A stretch of DNA of 64,000 nt, from positions 1-64,000 of the forward strand of contig CACLMT010000001.1 in the NCBI GenBank assembly GCA_902608115.1, read 5' to 3'. Positions 4,290 to 35,386 of this stretch are shown in pieces. Source of the DNA: an uncultured SAR86 cluster bacterium. GTDB lineage: Bacteria > Pseudomonadota > Gammaproteobacteria > Magnimaribacterales > D2472. How positions within the stretch are numbered: position 1 is the stretch's first letter; the number at the start of each line of letters is the position of its first letter. Made by a program: the position numbers and the translations under genes. The notes under the pieces are model-generated. The model saw only the letters and a list, made by a program, of their open reading frames with translations, ran no database searches and was not told the DNA's origin.

Positions 4290-4872
4290 AACTCTAGAAA
4301 AAATTGTATTAAATTGGGTTCCTGATGACTCTAAAGTAATTGATCTTGGGTGTGGCGATGGGTCGTTGCTAAGACTGTTGGCTGATAAAAAATCTGTAAC
4401 AGGATATGGGGTTGAAAATGATCCAATTAAAATTAATCTTTGTATTAAAAATGGGGTTTCTGTTATACAGCAAGATATAGATTCTGGTATTCAGGAATAT
4501 AAGAATATGGGCTTTGACTTGGCGATTATGGCAAGCTCTATTCAGTGCTTAAAAAAACCAAAAGATGCGCTAGAAAATATTCTAAAAGTTGCAAATGAAT
4601 GTGTTATAACTCTTCCAAACTTTGGTAATTGGGAGTTACGATCCAGCCTTTTTACTGGAAAGATGCCATCTTCAGACAGACTGCCTGCAAAGTGGTATGA
4701 AACAAAGAATATTCACTTGTGTACTATTGCAGACTTTGAAGAGCTCTGTGACTCTAATAGATATAATATTAAAAAGAAAATCTACTTAAATCGACACGGA
4801 AAATCTTCTTGGGTTACAGATCTCCTCCCAAATTTTTTTGCCGCTGAAGCGGTCTACTTAATTGGCAAATAA
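4282..4872 (+). CDS. metW: MetW, methionine biosynthesis methyltransferase-like protein
   Basis: 196 residues. SAM-dependent methyltransferase fold with motif I VIDLGCGDGSLLRLL. The segments VITLPNFGNWELRSSLFTGKMP and LPAKWYETKNIHLCTIADFE are characteristic of MetW. MetW works with MetX in homoserine acylation; its own enzymatic role is poorly defined. It overlaps metX at its start and rdgB at its end, so the three are almost certainly one transcript. Confidence 0.93.
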   Translation: MNKTLEKIVLNWVPDDSKVIDLGCGDGSLLRLLADKKSVTGYGVENDPIKINLCIKNGVSVIQQDIDSGIQEYKNMGFDLAIMASSIQCLKKPKDALENILKVANECVITLPNFGNWELRSSLFTGKMPSSDRLPAKWYETKNIHLCTIADFEELCDSNRYNIKKKIYLNRHGKSSWVTDLLPNFFAAEAVYLIGK

Positions 4873-5464
4873 AACAAAACTTCTTATAGCAACAAGCAAC
4901 CAGGGGAAACTAAAAGAGTTTTCATTATTATTACCTGACTTTAAAATAATATCCCAAAAATCTCTTAACCTTGCCCCAGAAGAAGAGACTGGTACCACTT
5001 TTTATGAAAATAGCCTTCATAAGGCTAGGGCTGGTGCAATAAAATCTAGTTTACTCTCTTTGGGCGATGACTCTGGATTAATTGTCCCCGCTTTAGGTAA
5101 TATGCCCGGCCTGCGCTCAGCTAGATACGCCCACGAAAATGCAACTGATGAAGAAAATAGAAATTATTTAAAAAATGAATTAAAAAAAATAGGAGTAAAT
5201 AAAACAAAGGCGTATTTTGTTTGCATCCTAACCATAATTAAAAACGCAGAAGACCCCTTTCCATTAATCTCAACGGGAATATTAAACGGTATAGTCAGTA
5301 TTGAATCTAGGGGTCAAAATGGCTTTGGTTATGATGAAATGTTTTACCCAAAAAACTATAAAGAATCTTTAGCAGAGATGAGCTTAGAGAGAAAATCAGA
5401 AATAAGTCATAGAGGCAAAGCTATTAGAGATTTAAAAAATAAAATTGACAAATTCTCAAAATAA
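4862..5464 (+). CDS. rdgB: XTP/dITP pyrophosphatase (RdgB/HAM1)
   Basis: 200 residues from a TTG start that overlaps the end of metW by 11 bases. Hydrolyses non-canonical purine triphosphates such as dITP and XTP to prevent mutagenic incorporation. Signatures are the N-terminal ATSNQGKLKEF, the metal-binding GDDSGLIVPALGNMPGLRSARYA, and GFGYDEMFYP. Position before hemW is the standard gammaproteobacterial order. Confidence 0.95.
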   Translation: MANKTKLLIATSNQGKLKEFSLLLPDFKIISQKSLNLAPEEETGTTFYENSLHKARAGAIKSSLLSLGDDSGLIVPALGNMPGLRSARYAHENATDEENRNYLKNELKKIGVNKTKAYFVCILTIIKNAEDPFPLISTGILNGIVSIESRGQNGFGYDEMFYPKNYKESLAEMSLERKSEISHRGKAIRDLKNKIDKFSK

Positions 5465-6557
5465 CAAATCTCCTTTAAGTTTATACATTCACTTACCTTG
5501 GTGTGAGCGCCGATGCCCTTATTGTGATTTTTCAATTACAACAGATCCAGTTGGTAAAAATGATCTAACTCTTGCTAAAGCAATTATTAAAGATATTAAT
5601 AATTCCTCCCCACTTATCAATGGAAGGAATTTCTCAACAATCTACTTTGGAGGCGGCACCCCCTCTTTGTCTTCGATAGAGGCTATTGAAATGATTTTAA
5701 ATTGTGTTAAAGGTCATTACTCAAACAAAGATATTGAAATTACTTTTGAAATGAACCCAACCGATGTAACAAAAGAGAAGGTTAATGGGTTAAGTGGCAT
5801 AGGTGTTAATCGTTTTTCTTTGGGGGTTCAAAGCTTCCATGATGCTGAGCTTAAGGCCCTTGGAAGAAACCATGATAAATCTTCTGCGTTAAATGCCATT
5901 AATATTCTTGCAGAAAGAAATATAACAATGGACCTTATGTATGGAATAGAGTTACAAACAATCCAATCTTTTGAAGAGACCTTAAATCAATTTATTGAAT
6001 CTAGGGTTAATCATCTTTCGTTATATCAGCTAACCATTGAACCAAATACAATTTATTACAAAAAAGCCTTAAAACTTCCCATGGAAGAGGAAATTGAAGC
6101 CATGGAAAACTCTGCCAAGACATTGTTAAAAAAAAGCGGTTACCATCAATATGAGATTTCCTCTTGGTCTAAAGCTGGTTTTGAAAGTAAGCATAATTTG
6201 AATTATTGGATGTTTGGAGATTATTTAGGCGTGGGTCCTGGAGCTCACAGCAAAATTACTTCAAAGGATAAAATATCTAGGTTTAGAAAGATAAAACCTC
6301 TTAATGCCTACATAAAAAACCAAAAAATAACTGATAACAATATTCTCTTGGGAGATGATCTAGATATGGATTTAGCTATGAATTTATTAAGAATGAAAGA
6401 GGGTATAACCCCTAATGAATTGCAAATTGAGCTCCCCAAAAGCTTTTTAAAGAAATACTTAAAGGGCGTGTCAAATGGTTTGTTAAAAAAAGATAAAATA
6501 GGCGCAACCAAAAAAGGTTATCAATATCTTAATGAGACGATAAATCTATTTTTTTAA
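5445..6557 (+). CDS. hemW: HemW, radical SAM heme chaperone (HemN-like)
   Basis: 370 residues from a TTG start inside the end of rdgB. The radical SAM cluster motif is CERRCPYCDF (CX3CX2C) near residue 15, followed by FGGGTPS. The HemW-type ending KHNLNYWMFGDYLGVGPGAHS is present. HemW has the CX3CX2C motif but lacks the extra HemN cysteine and acts in heme delivery rather than as coproporphyrinogen oxidase. Its 3' end overlaps convergent trmB by 12 bases. Confidence 0.93.
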   Translation: MTNSQNNKSPLSLYIHLPWCERRCPYCDFSITTDPVGKNDLTLAKAIIKDINNSSPLINGRNFSTIYFGGGTPSLSSIEAIEMILNCVKGHYSNKDIEITFEMNPTDVTKEKVNGLSGIGVNRFSLGVQSFHDAELKALGRNHDKSSALNAINILAERNITMDLMYGIELQTIQSFEETLNQFIESRVNHLSLYQLTIEPNTIYYKKALKLPMEEEIEAMENSAKTLLKKSGYHQYEISSWSKAGFESKHNLNYWMFGDYLGVGPGAHSKITSKDKISRFRKIKPLNAYIKNQKITDNNILLGDDLDMDLAMNLLRMKEGITPNELQIELPKSFLKKYLKGVSNGLLKKDKIGATKKGYQYLNETINLFF

Positions 6558-7238
6558 AGCTTCTAATAGATAAGTATGAATTGCCCTTCCTTCATTAATT
6601 GCTCTTTGTTGAAAACGAGTTATGGGCAGACCTCTTTGAGGGGTTTTATTATATTCAAATTTTTTTGAAGAATCATGAATTGCTTCTTCTATAAACTCTG
6701 CGTAATGCTTCCAGTCTGTGGAAATATAAATTGTTCCATTGGGCTGAATTGTTCTATGTAATATTTCTAAAAAATCTTTATTGAGTAATCTGCGTTTATG
6801 ATGTCTTGCTTTTGGCCATGGATCTGGGCAAATAATATAAATTTCATCAAAAATTGATGTGGATATTTTTAATAAAAGTTCACGAATATCTTTATCAAAA
6901 ATCTTAATATTACCAATTGAGTTCTCTACAATTGACCCTAACAGACTTCCAATTCCTGACTTGTAAACCTCCGATGCGACTACTAATGCTTCTGGGTTAG
7001 AGTTTGCTATATAAACAGTGCTTTCTCCGTTACCAAACCCAATATCCAAAATAACTTTTTTATAGTCTGGTGCAAAACCAAGTAATTGAGTTTCATCAAT
7101 AAGCTTAAATTTATCCAACAATTTTAAGGCTTCTTTCTGCGCAGAAGTAATTCGTCCAAGTCTTTGAACGAAGCTTGCTAGATAAGGCTTATCCTTATTA
7201 ATTGATCTTTCCTTCAGAAGGAGAAGAGGCAGAACCAT
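6546..7238 (-). CDS. trmB: tRNA (guanine-N7-)-methyltransferase
   Basis: Methylates G46 in the tRNA variable loop. The SAM motif is [12 protein letters not shown]. The catalytic/binding segment is [16 protein letters not shown], and the C-terminal [15 protein letters not shown] is also typical of TrmB. The start is uncertain: the frame is open to a TTG at 7289, and this entry uses the ATG at 7238. Either start overlaps the end of thiG by 40 to 90 bases. Homology with TrmB only becomes clear around [13 protein letters not shown], so a later, non-ATG start is also possible. Confidence 0.9.
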
Positions 7239-7980
7239 GAACGGTCTTAGGTATTCGGCCAGATAAAAACGCTTCTCGACCAGCTTCAATTGCTTTTTTC
7301 ATGGCGCTTGCCATTAATACTGGGTTATCAGCTTTAGCTATAGCCGTGTTCATTAAGACTCCATCACACCCAAGCTCCATTGCTATCGCAGCATCAGAGG
7401 CCGTCCCAACTCCTGCATCTACAATAATTGGTTTGTTTGCATTTTCAAGAATTATTTGTATATTGTGGGGGTTTATAATCCCCAGACCAGATCCAATTGG
7501 AGAAGCTAAAGGCATAACAGCCACGCAACCCATACTATCAAGCTCCTGACAAAACAAAGGATCGTCTGAACAATAAACCATTACATCAAAACCATCATCA
7601 ATTAATTTCTTTGCAGCGAACATCGTCTGAGACATATCTGGAAATAAAGTCTTTTTATCTCCAAGAACTTCTAATTTTACTAAATTTTTTCCATCTAATA
7701 ATTCCCGTGCTAAATTACATACACGAATTGCATCTTCAGCGGTAAAACAACCAGCAGTGTTAGGAAGTATGGTCCATTTTTTTGGATCTATATGATCAAG
7801 CAAATTGGGCTCTCCTTTTTCTTGACCTATGTTTGTTCTTCTAACCGCTACAGTAACTATTTCAGCGCCTGATGCCTCAATTGCAGATTGTGTTTCATGA
7901 AAATCTTTATATTTACCTGTACCAACCAGTAGCCTTGATTTAAATGATAAATTTCCAATTTTGAGCTTTTGATTCATCAT
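7198..7980 (-). CDS. thiG: Thiazole synthase ThiG
   Basis: 260 residues, TIM barrel. Forms the thiazole phosphate of thiamine from 1-deoxy-D-xylulose 5-phosphate, dehydroglycine and ThiS thiocarboxylate. The Schiff-base lysine lies in [10 protein letters not shown], and the phosphate-binding [25 protein letters not shown] is well conserved. Two adjacent ATG codons are possible; the first overlaps the thiS stop by 4 bases. Confidence 0.96.
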
Positions 7981-21203: not shown

Positions 21204-22046
21204 ATGCAAACTAAATTATTAAGAGAAATAAAAAATGCCTTGTCTAGTCTCAGAAAATCTGAAATCAAAGTGGCTGAATTTATATTAAACAAGCCAAGCG
21301 CAATTATTGAGCTAACAACAGCGCAGGCCTCTAATGAAATTGGTATAAGTGAGCCAACCCTTATTAGGTTTTGTAAAGCAATTGGTTTTAGTGGTTTCCA
21401 AAAATTTAAACTCACCCTTGCTCAGCAGCTTGCTGCGGATAATTATTTCCACGCCTATGAGATTAATCCTGATGACAGCATACAAACCCTGACAGAAAAA
21501 GTATTTGATAGCACTATTAGTGAAATTTTAAATGTTCGGTCCCAACTCAGCCAAGAATCTCTTGAAGAGGCTATAAAAACTTTAGCCAATGCAAAGCGGG
21601 TTGAGTTTTATGCTTTTGGCGGATCAGCCCCCGTGGCAATGGATGCTCAACATAAATTTTTTAGACTAAAGATACCTTCGTCATGTATCTCAGACCCTCA
21701 CATACAATTCATGTCAGCTAACTCACTAAATAAAACTGACGTAGTGGTTGCTATCTCTCAATCAGGAACAACAGCCGCCTTGGTAGAAAGCGTAAAAACC
21801 GTACAAAGCTTTGGAGTTGTTGTTGTTGGTTTGATGCCCTCTAGGACTCCTCTCTCTAGAATATGTGACATCTCATTAGATATAGACGTAGGAGAGAATG
21901 CCCGACTAACTCGACCCCTAACATCTAGGCTTGCTTATATGGCAATTATTGATGTCTTGGCCGTGGGTGTGGCGCAACTTAAGCCTGAAGCACAAGATCA
22001 TTTGTACAATATTGTTACAAGCCAAAATTCTCTTAAGCTTAAATAA
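21204..22046 (+). CDS. hexR: HexR-type transcriptional regulator (RpiR/SIS)
   Basis: 280 residues. N-terminal RpiR helix-turn-helix (about 1-77), including SEPTLIRFCKAIGFSGFQKFKL, then a SIS sugar-phosphate domain (about 120-260) with FYAFGGSAPVAMDAQHKFFR and VVVAISQSGTTAALVE. The pattern matches HexR, which senses KDPG and controls central carbon genes in gammaproteobacteria. No edd, zwf or eda gene is nearby, so the target set is unknown. Divergent from uvrD. Confidence 0.83.
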   Translation: MQTKLLREIKNALSSLRKSEIKVAEFILNKPSAIIELTTAQASNEIGISEPTLIRFCKAIGFSGFQKFKLTLAQQLAADNYFHAYEINPDDSIQTLTEKVFDSTISEILNVRSQLSQESLEEAIKTLANAKRVEFYAFGGSAPVAMDAQHKFFRLKIPSSCISDPHIQFMSANSLNKTDVVVAISQSGTTAALVESVKTVQSFGVVVVGLMPSRTPLSRICDISLDIDVGENARLTRPLTSRLAYMAIIDVLAVGVAQLKPEAQDHLYNIVTSQNSLKLK

Positions 22047-22691
22047 CTAATATCTTAGGTTTTCTCGGAACCAAAGATTAATTACCCACTTCTCTCCTTT
22101 GATCACCGGCATTCCACCATGCAACGATCTTGGATTAATTTCAGCGTGTAAAGAAGATTCGCTGTTTAAAAGAGCATTATGAAATATAACCACATCTCCC
22201 TTTCTTGGGCTGATGGTTACTCCGAGCTCAGGAAAGTCTGTTCCGCCCCCCGCCTCTACATTGTTAAGATAGGCTAGGGCAGTGATGAGGCGCTGTCCTC
22301 CTGGCTCCCAGTTTTTTTTACCGTCTTCAGAGTTAAAGTCAAAAGAATCAAAATGGGGTTTATATTCTGCCCCCTCTTTGTAATAAACAAGTTGGTATTG
22401 TTCTGCGTTTCTAATGGGCATCTGCACCAAAATAGAGAACCTTTTACTAACCTCATGCAATATTTCACTGGCATCATGTTGTATCCAACAATTTTCACTT
22501 GTTCTGCTCTTGTGTTGAATATGCTTATCAGGACTAATGACTGTAGAGGGTTTTAACCTGCCCTTTCCAGCCTCAATAAAAGCATCACACTCATCATTGC
22601 TCAAAAAATTGTCAACAACGTACAGTATGGGATTTGATGAATGCATGGTGACATTATCTGCAATTTTTTTTGGAAACTCTTCTTCTTTCAT
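22047..22691 (-). CDS. Prolyl 4-hydroxylase-like 2OG-Fe(II) oxygenase
   Basis: 214 residues, one catalytic domain, no signal peptide. The iron triad is in KPHFDSFDF (HxD) and SLHGGMPV (distal His), with the 2-oxoglutarate lysine in IKGEKWVINLWFR. Other P4H features are VVDNFLSNDEC, the YQLVYYKEGAEY strand and ALAYLNNVEAGGGTDFPELG. It should hydroxylate prolines in a cytosolic protein. It is divergent from a Skp1-type GlcNAc transferase with a 35-base gap (see findings). Confidence 0.88.
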   Translation of the reverse strand: MKEEEFPKKIADNVTMHSSNPILYVVDNFLSNDECDAFIEAGKGRLKPSTVISPDKHIQHKSRTSENCWIQHDASEILHEVSKRFSILVQMPIRNAEQYQLVYYKEGAEYKPHFDSFDFNSEDGKKNWEPGGQRLITALAYLNNVEAGGGTDFPELGVTISPRKGDVVIFHNALLNSESSLHAEINPRSLHGGMPVIKGEKWVINLWFRENLRY

Positions 22692-22726
22692 GTGAGATAA
22701 TTGTAATTTAAAAACTTGTTTCTAGC

Positions 22727-23734
22727 ATGTCTATGAAAATATTTATTTCCATTCCCTCTTATCAAGACCCATTATTGCTTGAAACTCTTTGTAGCGCATA
22801 TCAAAATGCTGCAAATAAAGACAACATTTCATTTGGTGTTTGTGAGCAAGCCAATCATGGTATAGATGTTGAATCATTAAAGTTTCAAGATCGAGTTGAA
22901 TATGAATTATTAGACCCAGTTATGGCAAAAGGACCCTGTTGGGCAAGAGCAAGAATTCAAAAATTTTTAAACGATGAGGATTACTTTCTTCAAATAGACT
23001 CTCATACTATTTTTGCAAAAAATTGGGACGCCATTCTATTAAATTATTATTCTTGGTTAGAGGACAACTTGGAAAATAATTTCGTAATTACAGGATATCC
23101 ACGAGAATTCAAACCCAATAAAGAGCTTACTAGTTTTGAATTAAATACTACACATAAAGATACTCTAGGAATCACTTTTCGAGAGGACAGAATGTTTGAA
23201 GACGGTCATTATTCTATGCAAAAAAGCTTTCCCGCTAATGCAAAGGTTCCGGTTAAAGGTTTGTTAGTGGCGGGGGGTTTTATTTTTACAAAAAGAAAAT
23301 TTATAGAAGATATTCCATATGACCCAAACTTCTATTTTCACGGAGAAGAGCTGAGCATTGCTTTAAGACTTTTTACAAATAAGTGGGATGTGGTACACAT
23401 ACCAGGAGTGCCAATATTTCATTTTTATACAGATGTAAATAATTTAGATAGAAAGCTTCATTGGGATCCTGAAGATGACAAAAATCGAGTGATAAAATGG
23501 AATGAACTGGACAAAAAAAGCAAAGCAAGATTGACCGATTTAGTAAATAATAAACTGAAAGAGCCCTTTGGGCTGGGCTCAGATAGAACGATCGAAGAAT
23601 TTGGAAAACTATCCGGGGTCGATCTTATTAAAAAAGATATTGTTGACTTTGATAGGGCCACTAATACTTTCTGTTTTTTTAAGATTGATTCAGATGACAG
23701 GCCTTTTCATTCAATTATTTCAGCAAATAATTGA
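22727..23734 (+). CDS. Skp1-type GlcNAc transferase family glycosyltransferase
   Basis: 335 residues. The beginning IFISIPSYQDPLLLETL, then FGVCEQ, GPCWARARIQKF and YFLQIDSHTIFAKNWD (DSH metal-binding motif), match the family that includes Dictyostelium Gnt1. That enzyme adds GlcNAc to hydroxyproline on Skp1. The segment VAGGFIFTKRKFIEDIPYDP and FFHGEELSIALRLF-like residues (YFHGEELSIALRLF) follow. No signal peptide, so cytosolic. Acceptor and sugar are inferred only. Confidence 0.82.
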   Translation: MSMKIFISIPSYQDPLLLETLCSAYQNAANKDNISFGVCEQANHGIDVESLKFQDRVEYELLDPVMAKGPCWARARIQKFLNDEDYFLQIDSHTIFAKNWDAILLNYYSWLEDNLENNFVITGYPREFKPNKELTSFELNTTHKDTLGITFREDRMFEDGHYSMQKSFPANAKVPVKGLLVAGGFIFTKRKFIEDIPYDPNFYFHGEELSIALRLFTNKWDVVHIPGVPIFHFYTDVNNLDRKLHWDPEDDKNRVIKWNELDKKSKARLTDLVNNKLKEPFGLGSDRTIEEFGKLSGVDLIKKDIVDFDRATNTFCFFKIDSDDRPFHSIISANN

Positions 23735-23757
23735 AAAAATATTAATGGAGAACAAAA

Positions 23758-24174
23758 ATGAAAGACGAAGTTAAAAAATTTTTAAATGCTTATGGAGACT
23801 TTGTTACTAAAGTCACTAGTAAACCAAGCCTAAATCAATCTAGTCTAGATGAGAGAATGAAAGAAATTGATTCTTCCTCTGATATCAAATCCGCAAGGCT
23901 TATAACGGCTGCGCTTGGACTTGGGAGTGAAACGGGCGAATTTGTGGAAATAGTTAAGAAAATATTTCTGCAGGGCAAGCCCGCAAACGAAGACAATATA
24001 TTTCACATGAAAAGAGAGCTTGGTGACATTATGTGGTACTGGGTTACGGCATGTATGGCTCTAAAGCTTGACCCATATGAAGTAATCAAGGAAAACCAAG
24101 ACAAACTTGAAGCAAGATATGGAGAAAAATTTAAAGTTGATAGAAGTGAGCACAGAAAAGATGGTGACTTATAA
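23758..24174 (+). CDS. MazG-like nucleotide pyrophosphohydrolase
   Basis: 138 residues with the all-alpha NTP pyrophosphohydrolase motif: ETGEFVEIVKK followed by KRELGDIMWYWVTAC, giving the EXXE and EXXD metal-binding pairs. A ribosome-binding sequence (ggag) lies just before the ATG. Such proteins remove aberrant nucleotides or alter nucleotide pools and are frequent in marine phages. It follows the glycosyltransferase after 23 bases and probably shares its transcript. Confidence 0.85.
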   Translation: MKDEVKKFLNAYGDFVTKVTSKPSLNQSSLDERMKEIDSSSDIKSARLITAALGLGSETGEFVEIVKKIFLQGKPANEDNIFHMKRELGDIMWYWVTACMALKLDPYEVIKENQDKLEARYGEKFKVDRSEHRKDGDL

Positions 24175-34437: not shown

Positions 34438-35268
34438 TCAACTGGGGTTATGCCAGCAGATGCAAGCTTTGAAAGCCACTCAGGCTCGTCTTCAGATCTA
34501 AGATTGAGATCAAGCATGGGTTGATAATTTATAAAATCTACTTCATAAGTATCATAAATAGATTCTCTGCCATCATACTTCAGACAAGGGTTTTCTTTGT
34601 ACAATGGGCCGTTTTTATCTACATAGTGAATAAAAATATTTTTTAGAGAAATTTCCTTCTAGCGGGTCTCTCCAATGCAGCACATTAATGCCCTGATATA
34701 TCAAAACATCGCCTGGCTGCATGGATATTGCTTTGCAGCCAATTGATGACCTTTCCTGCATTGATTTTTTTTGAGAAAGACCAAAAAATGACTCATATTT
34801 GTAACCTGCATAATTTTTATTATTTAAAAGCCAAATTGGCCAGGGTTCTTTGTTGTCTGTTTCTTGATCAATGCATATGGTAGCGCTCACTTCACAGCTT
34901 GGTCTGTCTCGATGGGCATACAAAACTGCATTTCTATTATATTTTCGAGAATAGTTATAGGTTGGAACCAGCTCAAGATTAAGAATGGATTCAATGGATT
35001 TTTGGAGATGCGTTAAAAGAAATACCCCAAAAGGAGCGGCCCCAAATTCAACTGTAGTAAATGGTTTGACCCATGAGGAGTCTTCTCTGTGAATGCCTTC
35101 AGATTCAACAAAAACCTGATCAAAAGGATGTTTTTCAAATGCATTCCATGAAATTTGAATGTGTTCTAATAATTCTGGAGTAAGTAAATTTTTTGCTAAA
35201 AAATATCTATGCTCTTGAAAAAAAACTTCAGAAGAAGTCTTAGATTTTTTCTTAAATACATCAAACAT
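34434..35268 (-). CDS. 2OG-Fe(II) oxygenase-like protein, frameshifted near its C-terminus
   Basis: The undisturbed frame from the ATG at 35268 (a TTG at 35277 is also possible) ends early at 34615. It contains the metal ligands in YAHRDRPSCEVSATICID (HxD) and INVLHWRDPLEGNF (distal His and Arg). Shifting one base at the A/T runs 34632-34644 continues with FIHYVDKNGPLYKENP and about 60 more residues to a TAA at 34434. FIHYVD.NG is the normal strand after the distal histidine in this family. Restored length is about 277 residues. Divergent from a GT39 gene. Confidence 0.72.
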
Positions 35269-35386
35269 AGAGAACAATTTAATCTTTTTTGCTAAAAAAT
35301 CAAATCAAGATTATAAAATAGATTCAATATGCATAATTACTACGAACCACTAACTTATTGTATTTACAGAAACACTATTAAATTTA

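Follow-up and report, generated by a model that had tools for sequence, protein, structure and literature searches.

A jointly inherited prolyl 4-hydroxylase and GT60 glycosyltransferase gene pair in SAR86 bacteria: a candidate cytosolic protein-modification cassette

Cytosolic O-glycosylation linked to hydroxyproline is described, in the literature consulted, for Skp1 of protists. Skp1 is a eukaryotic protein. In Dictyostelium and Toxoplasma, its modification involves a cytosolic prolyl 4-hydroxylase, PhyA, linked to a GT60 (PF11397) transferase, Gnt1. The latter acts on Skp1 hydroxyproline (PMC6939170) and, in many protists, the PhyA and Gnt1 genes are fused (PMC6437050). Bacteria also have prolyl hydroxylases. 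Those of Bacillus anthracis (P4H) and Pseudomonas putida (PPHD) share a cytosolic target, EF-Tu; for the Bacillus enzyme, this is stated in the title of PDB entry 5v7y and cited in PMC6437050. In the literature consulted, no glycosyltransferase partner is described for either enzyme. Two other points of comparison are the GT27 family and the polypeptide alpha-GlcNAc-transferase of Trypanosoma cruzi, a GT60 member. Both are retaining alpha-HexNAc polypeptide transferases with Ser/Thr acceptors. GT27 enzymes differ further in their additional lectin domain and in working within the secretory pathway. Note that GT60, known from prokaryotes and protists, resembles GT27 in having a DxH motif in place of DxD, and that relatives in these families can use Ser/Thr acceptors (PMC7185993). 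Here, we describe a gene pair of SAR86, a bacterial group reported to be ubiquitous in the surface waters of the ocean (PMC3569297). Our limited literature search, combining SAR86 with prolyl 4-hydroxylase, found no paper, although others may exist.

The DNA analysed is a stretch of 64,000 nucleotides (hereafter, the window) from a SAR86 assembly of 1.25 Mb in 37 contigs. It contains a gene for a prolyl 4-hydroxylase (P4H; positions 22047-22691, reverse strand, 214 amino acids, PF13640) and, divergent from it, a gene for a GT60/PF11397 glycosyltransferase of the GT-A type (GT; 22727-23734, forward strand, 335 amino acids). An earlier note on this DNA had placed the two genes 35 bp apart, and the open reading frames, strands and start codons agree with this. 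The 35 bp between the start codons (22692-22726) constitute a divergent promoter region. In most relatives this spacer is 16-45 bp, and the block ATAATTGTA is common to genera g1 and g6, with most of it also found in g10. Gene maps and slot scoring show that P4H and GT make up a discrete cassette of two genes, which occupies a fixed slot with conserved borders. On the left, outside the cassette, is hexR (21204-22046, forward strand), encoding a HexR-like regulator of the RpiR family. On the right is mazG (23758-24174, forward strand), encoding a MazG-like pyrophosphohydrolase (PF03819). The absence of signal peptides from both enzymes, also claimed previously, is borne out by hydropathy, the one measure used. 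Kyte-Doolittle windows of 19 residues detected no hydrophobic signal segment at either N-terminus; the best window nearby scored 0.5-0.8, compared to 1.9 for a neighbouring lipoprotein-like protein. Judged from their sequences, P4H and GT both look cytosolic.

The SAR86 hydroxylase is of the collagen/plant/Bacillus type, and not the PhyA/PHD type. It matches the Pfam profile PF13640 (E 3e-16) and retains the residues that engage iron and 2-oxoglutarate (2OG): the triad H113-D115-H191 and the 2OG-binding K201. Its nearest solved relatives, with the same HxD...H and lysine arrangement, are protein prolyl 4-hydroxylases. Four relatives in other genomes depart from this type at the triad. A profile search found no PHD-type chain at E values up to 10, whereas P4H types reached 2e-39. 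The structural model (pLDDT 82.8) is less certain in loops around the active site, and its closest matches are the P4Hs of algae, human collagen and Bacillus. For substrate-bound algal P4H (3gze) the Z score was 26.2, with an rmsd of 1.9 over 193 residues, and for Bacillus P4H (5v7y), which is of the same structural type, it was 22.0. More broadly, collagen, plant, Bacillus and viral types scored 17-26 and PHD types 14-16. Similarly, DdPhyA (6t8m) fell well below the best matches (Foldseek TM of 0.53 versus 0.82). The window protein is therefore not a member of the group of Skp1 or HIF type hydroxylases that includes PHD2, PPHD and DdPhyA.

The transferase is a different matter. It matches PF11397 ('GlcNAc'; E 6e-44, 151 bits, cut-off 21), which is the family of Gnt1 and corresponds to CAZy GT60. 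The DxH motif is D91-S-H93 and the C-terminal histidine is H232. All three residues (D91, H93 and H232) are invariant in 39 sequences, following the rule for the family, and DxH was kept in 38 of 38 scored. While a PDB sequence search with GT found no relative, the model (pLDDT 93.9) gave clear structural matches. The top 29 were all polypeptide GalNAc-transferases of GT27 (Z 19.8-23.3) and the first enzyme of another kind had a Z score of 17.3. GT therefore resembles GT27 in fold and DxH motif, and the T. cruzi enzyme in family and DxH motif. Because the structures nearest to the GT model are polypeptide GalNAc-transferases, a protein acceptor is supported; polypeptide alpha-GlcNAc transfer would agree with the predicted fold. 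The earlier note had considered both enzymes homologous to those acting on Skp1. By sequence and by structural modelling, this stands for GT, as a GT60/Gnt1 family member, but P4H is only distantly related to the Skp1 hydroxylase.

These comparisons bear on whether proteins are the substrates at all. Conceivably, P4H might oxidise a small peptide or an amino acid in free form, while the target of GT might be an unrelated glycan, with the two sharing only a promoter region. The PF13640 superfamily is broad and sequence does not reveal the substrate. However, the solved structures nearest P4H are of prolyl hydroxylases that act on proteins, one of them in complex with a (Ser-Pro)5 peptide, and the GT fold is nearest that of polypeptide transferases. 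We regard a non-protein substrate as very unlikely.

We examined how the two genes are distributed. Among 107 genomes of the same family, GT was present in 48 and P4H in 47. The slot could be resolved in 83 SAR86 genomes, after excluding three cut by contig ends. Both genes were present in 40, P4H only in one, GT only in none, and 42 had neither. Hence, the co-occurrence check proposed with the earlier note places the pair well beyond this locus. In the pair-free genomes of g8 and g9, hexR and mazG abut, no more than 80 bp apart and sometimes overlapping as scored. The slot is occupied by an NMO-like gene in g5 and by a short-chain dehydrogenase gene in one g4 genome. In g3, hexR was not found beside mazG, and mapped genomes have an NMO-like gene there. 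The sole P4H-only slot is that of G052, a one-contig genome with 95% completeness and no GT60. The GT position is taken by a 272-residue protein without a Pfam match, which may be a second 2OG oxygenase because it has HxD...H-like residues. Separately, the window contains a remnant of a 2OG-oxygenase-like gene (34446-35277, reverse strand), 50-52% identical to this protein. In G052 and G091 the reading frame of this gene is intact; in G100 and in the window genome it is interrupted. Two further loci are irregular. In L067 (G053, SAR86A), around 5691-7907, there is a partial tandem duplication, in which GT is followed by another mazG-like stretch and by a fragment of GT. In L068 (G039), around 4822-6283, GT is split into two frames and MazG has several stops, consistent with decay or assembly error.

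On a tree of flanking genes the pattern requires 12 state changes in all, at least 11 for P4H and 10 for GT, and the two genes changed together except once. In independent contrasts, P4H and GT changed jointly in 6-7 of 7 pairs (sign test, p about 0.016). Furthermore, patristic distances for P4H and GT are more closely correlated than the flank tree explains (partial r 0.37, matched in 0 of 2000 permutations). Since the genes come and go together, always in the same slot, we conclude that P4H and GT are functionally linked. Genetic linkage of a hydroxylase to a GT60 transferase, as in Skp1-type pathways, is thus present in SAR86, but with separate and divergent genes. Note that chance neighbours, with no functional link, could persist were a two-gene segment to hitchhike as a block. 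That explanation is already contradicted by the 40/1/0/42 distribution and by joint gain or loss at least ten times; replacement of GT in place, discussed below, also preserves the pairing. We give it almost no credence.

Outside SAR86, GT60 enzymes appeared in only three other genomes of a class sample (n = 369). Scanning a larger collection identified 382 relatives and we read the loci of the best 79: 42 from SAR86 and 37 others. A P4H gene was next door in all 42 SAR86 loci. Conversely, no recognisable P4H was found in the flanks of the 37 non-SAR86 bacterial loci (up to 5 kb, some incomplete, among the best 79 of 382). Hence, the GT60 family needs no such hydroxylase. Neighbours in these other bacteria were heterogeneous and no common partner was seen. 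In one case, a Phyllobacterium plasmid (L330, 1-6939), GT60 directly follows a gene for a large calcium-binding protein, with type I secretion genes nearby.

An origin in phages had been raised previously, partly because of the MazG neighbour. This part of the argument fails; mazG is a host gene, found in 94 of the 107 SAR86 genomes whether or not they carry the pair, and we rejected it as one of a phage-derived trio. The remainder depends on which enzyme is considered. SAR86 GTs form one clade (support 97) that adjoins viral GT60s with weak support (SH-aLRT 84-85). Phage ancestry is, for this reason, possible for GT alone. Viral relatives of P4H were weak matches (22-35% identity), with no close phage relative among them (best 30-32%). 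It might be supposed that the slot is a phage-derived, variable locus for surface or phage interaction, at which gain, loss and GT allele exchange reflect phage pressure, and that the target of GT is a component of the cell surface or of phages. In line with this are the position of the GT clade, a GT type common to two genera in which P4H follows genus (see below), and one marine phage type (L177/L188) with GT60 and a PF13640 oxygenase about 2.2 kb apart. In the viral contig L177 (2104-5978), the oxygenase, a sulfotransferase and GT60 lie within 4 kb, adjoining DNA polymerase A. However, the maps drawn show no recognisable phage genes on either side of the cassette, the phage P4H relatives are distant, and the sole PADLOC match was to a generic 2OG-domain model, for P4H, with nothing defence-specific. 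We consider such a phage-driven locus unlikely.

The full triad is intact in 38 of 42 P4Hs (that of the window and 37 of 41 others scored). The exceptions are P4Hs of G015 and G019, with the substitution H113R, and those of G046 and G047, in which H113, H191 and K201 are all lost. All four iron-ligand-deficient P4Hs adjoin an intact GT of one type, clade A, which comprises 8 genomes of the tree. This association has a Fisher p of 0.0008, a value naive as to kinship, since perhaps only two events by descent are involved. No other PF13640 enzyme was found in G046 or G047, though G046 is only 59% complete. Clade A also brings together, with full support, GTs from the two genera g1 and g6; the P4Hs of G034, G037 and G050, by contrast, group with their own genera. 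The spacer of most clade-A members is unlike that of other g1 genomes. From these features, it appears that GT has been replaced in place by recombination.

Because a broken P4H sits beside an intact GT in four genomes, the acceptor is probably something other than hydroxyproline in some cases. These four genomes speak against a pathway of two obligatory steps in every SAR86 lineage with the pair. The enzymes might serve the same target or process without acting in sequence: GT would modify Ser/Thr, and P4H would modify prolines independently or bind GT. The broken P4Hs are kept as open frames, and for G046/G047 dN/dS is 0.26-0.30 (no more than suggestive, from a single 191-codon comparison), below 1 but above the 0.01-0.10 of those intact pairs that gave a value. 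Use of Ser/Thr by GT27, the nearest fold, and bacterial GT60s lacking a neighbouring hydroxylase in the flanks examined, also fit. Yet nearly all P4Hs retain the full triad, purifying selection is strong in those intact pairs that were compared, no resolved slot has GT without a P4H gene, and the value for broken P4Hs comes from a single short comparison. On balance, we think non-sequential action rather unlikely.

P4H and GT are a real, conserved and jointly inherited pair that most likely forms a cytosolic protein hydroxylation-glycosylation system. Our preferred explanation, with a probability of about 0.52, is sequential proline hydroxylation and HexNAc transfer onto hydroxyproline. P4H, using Fe(II) and 2-oxoglutarate, would oxidise one or more prolines of a cytosolic SAR86 protein. 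With a UDP-sugar as donor, the adjacent GT60 enzyme would then glycosylate the resulting hydroxyproline with HexNAc in alpha linkage, GlcNAc being the probable sugar. We infer the order of action, the donor sugar and the acceptor. For some clade-A GTs, it is probable that the acceptor residue has changed, or that the degenerate P4H serves them as a non-catalytic partner. Hence, the two-step modification of a cytosolic protein suggested by the earlier note keeps its support from the functional link, cytosolic appearance and polypeptide-transferase fold, but not as a rule without exception. EF-Tu was considered as a candidate acceptor. The region of Pro54, the PPHD target, was present in 30 of 30 SAR86 genomes, with or without the pair, and no proline column of EF-Tu separated pair-bearing from pair-free genomes among the 30 compared, a neutral result for EF-Tu as acceptor.

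A more specific version is a bacterial protein-hydroxyproline O-HexNAc system that would be convergent with that of Skp1, since its hydroxylase is of a different type to PhyA, and in which P4H would have become a catalytically dead partner of GT in one clade. This version is offered only tentatively, and we find it somewhat doubtful. The broken P4Hs beside intact GTs are a natural experiment on the need for hydroxyproline. If sequential modification is true, the SAR86 pair would be a bacterial, oxygen-dependent form of hydroxyproline O-glycosylation, and would offer a system well suited to the search for its acceptor.
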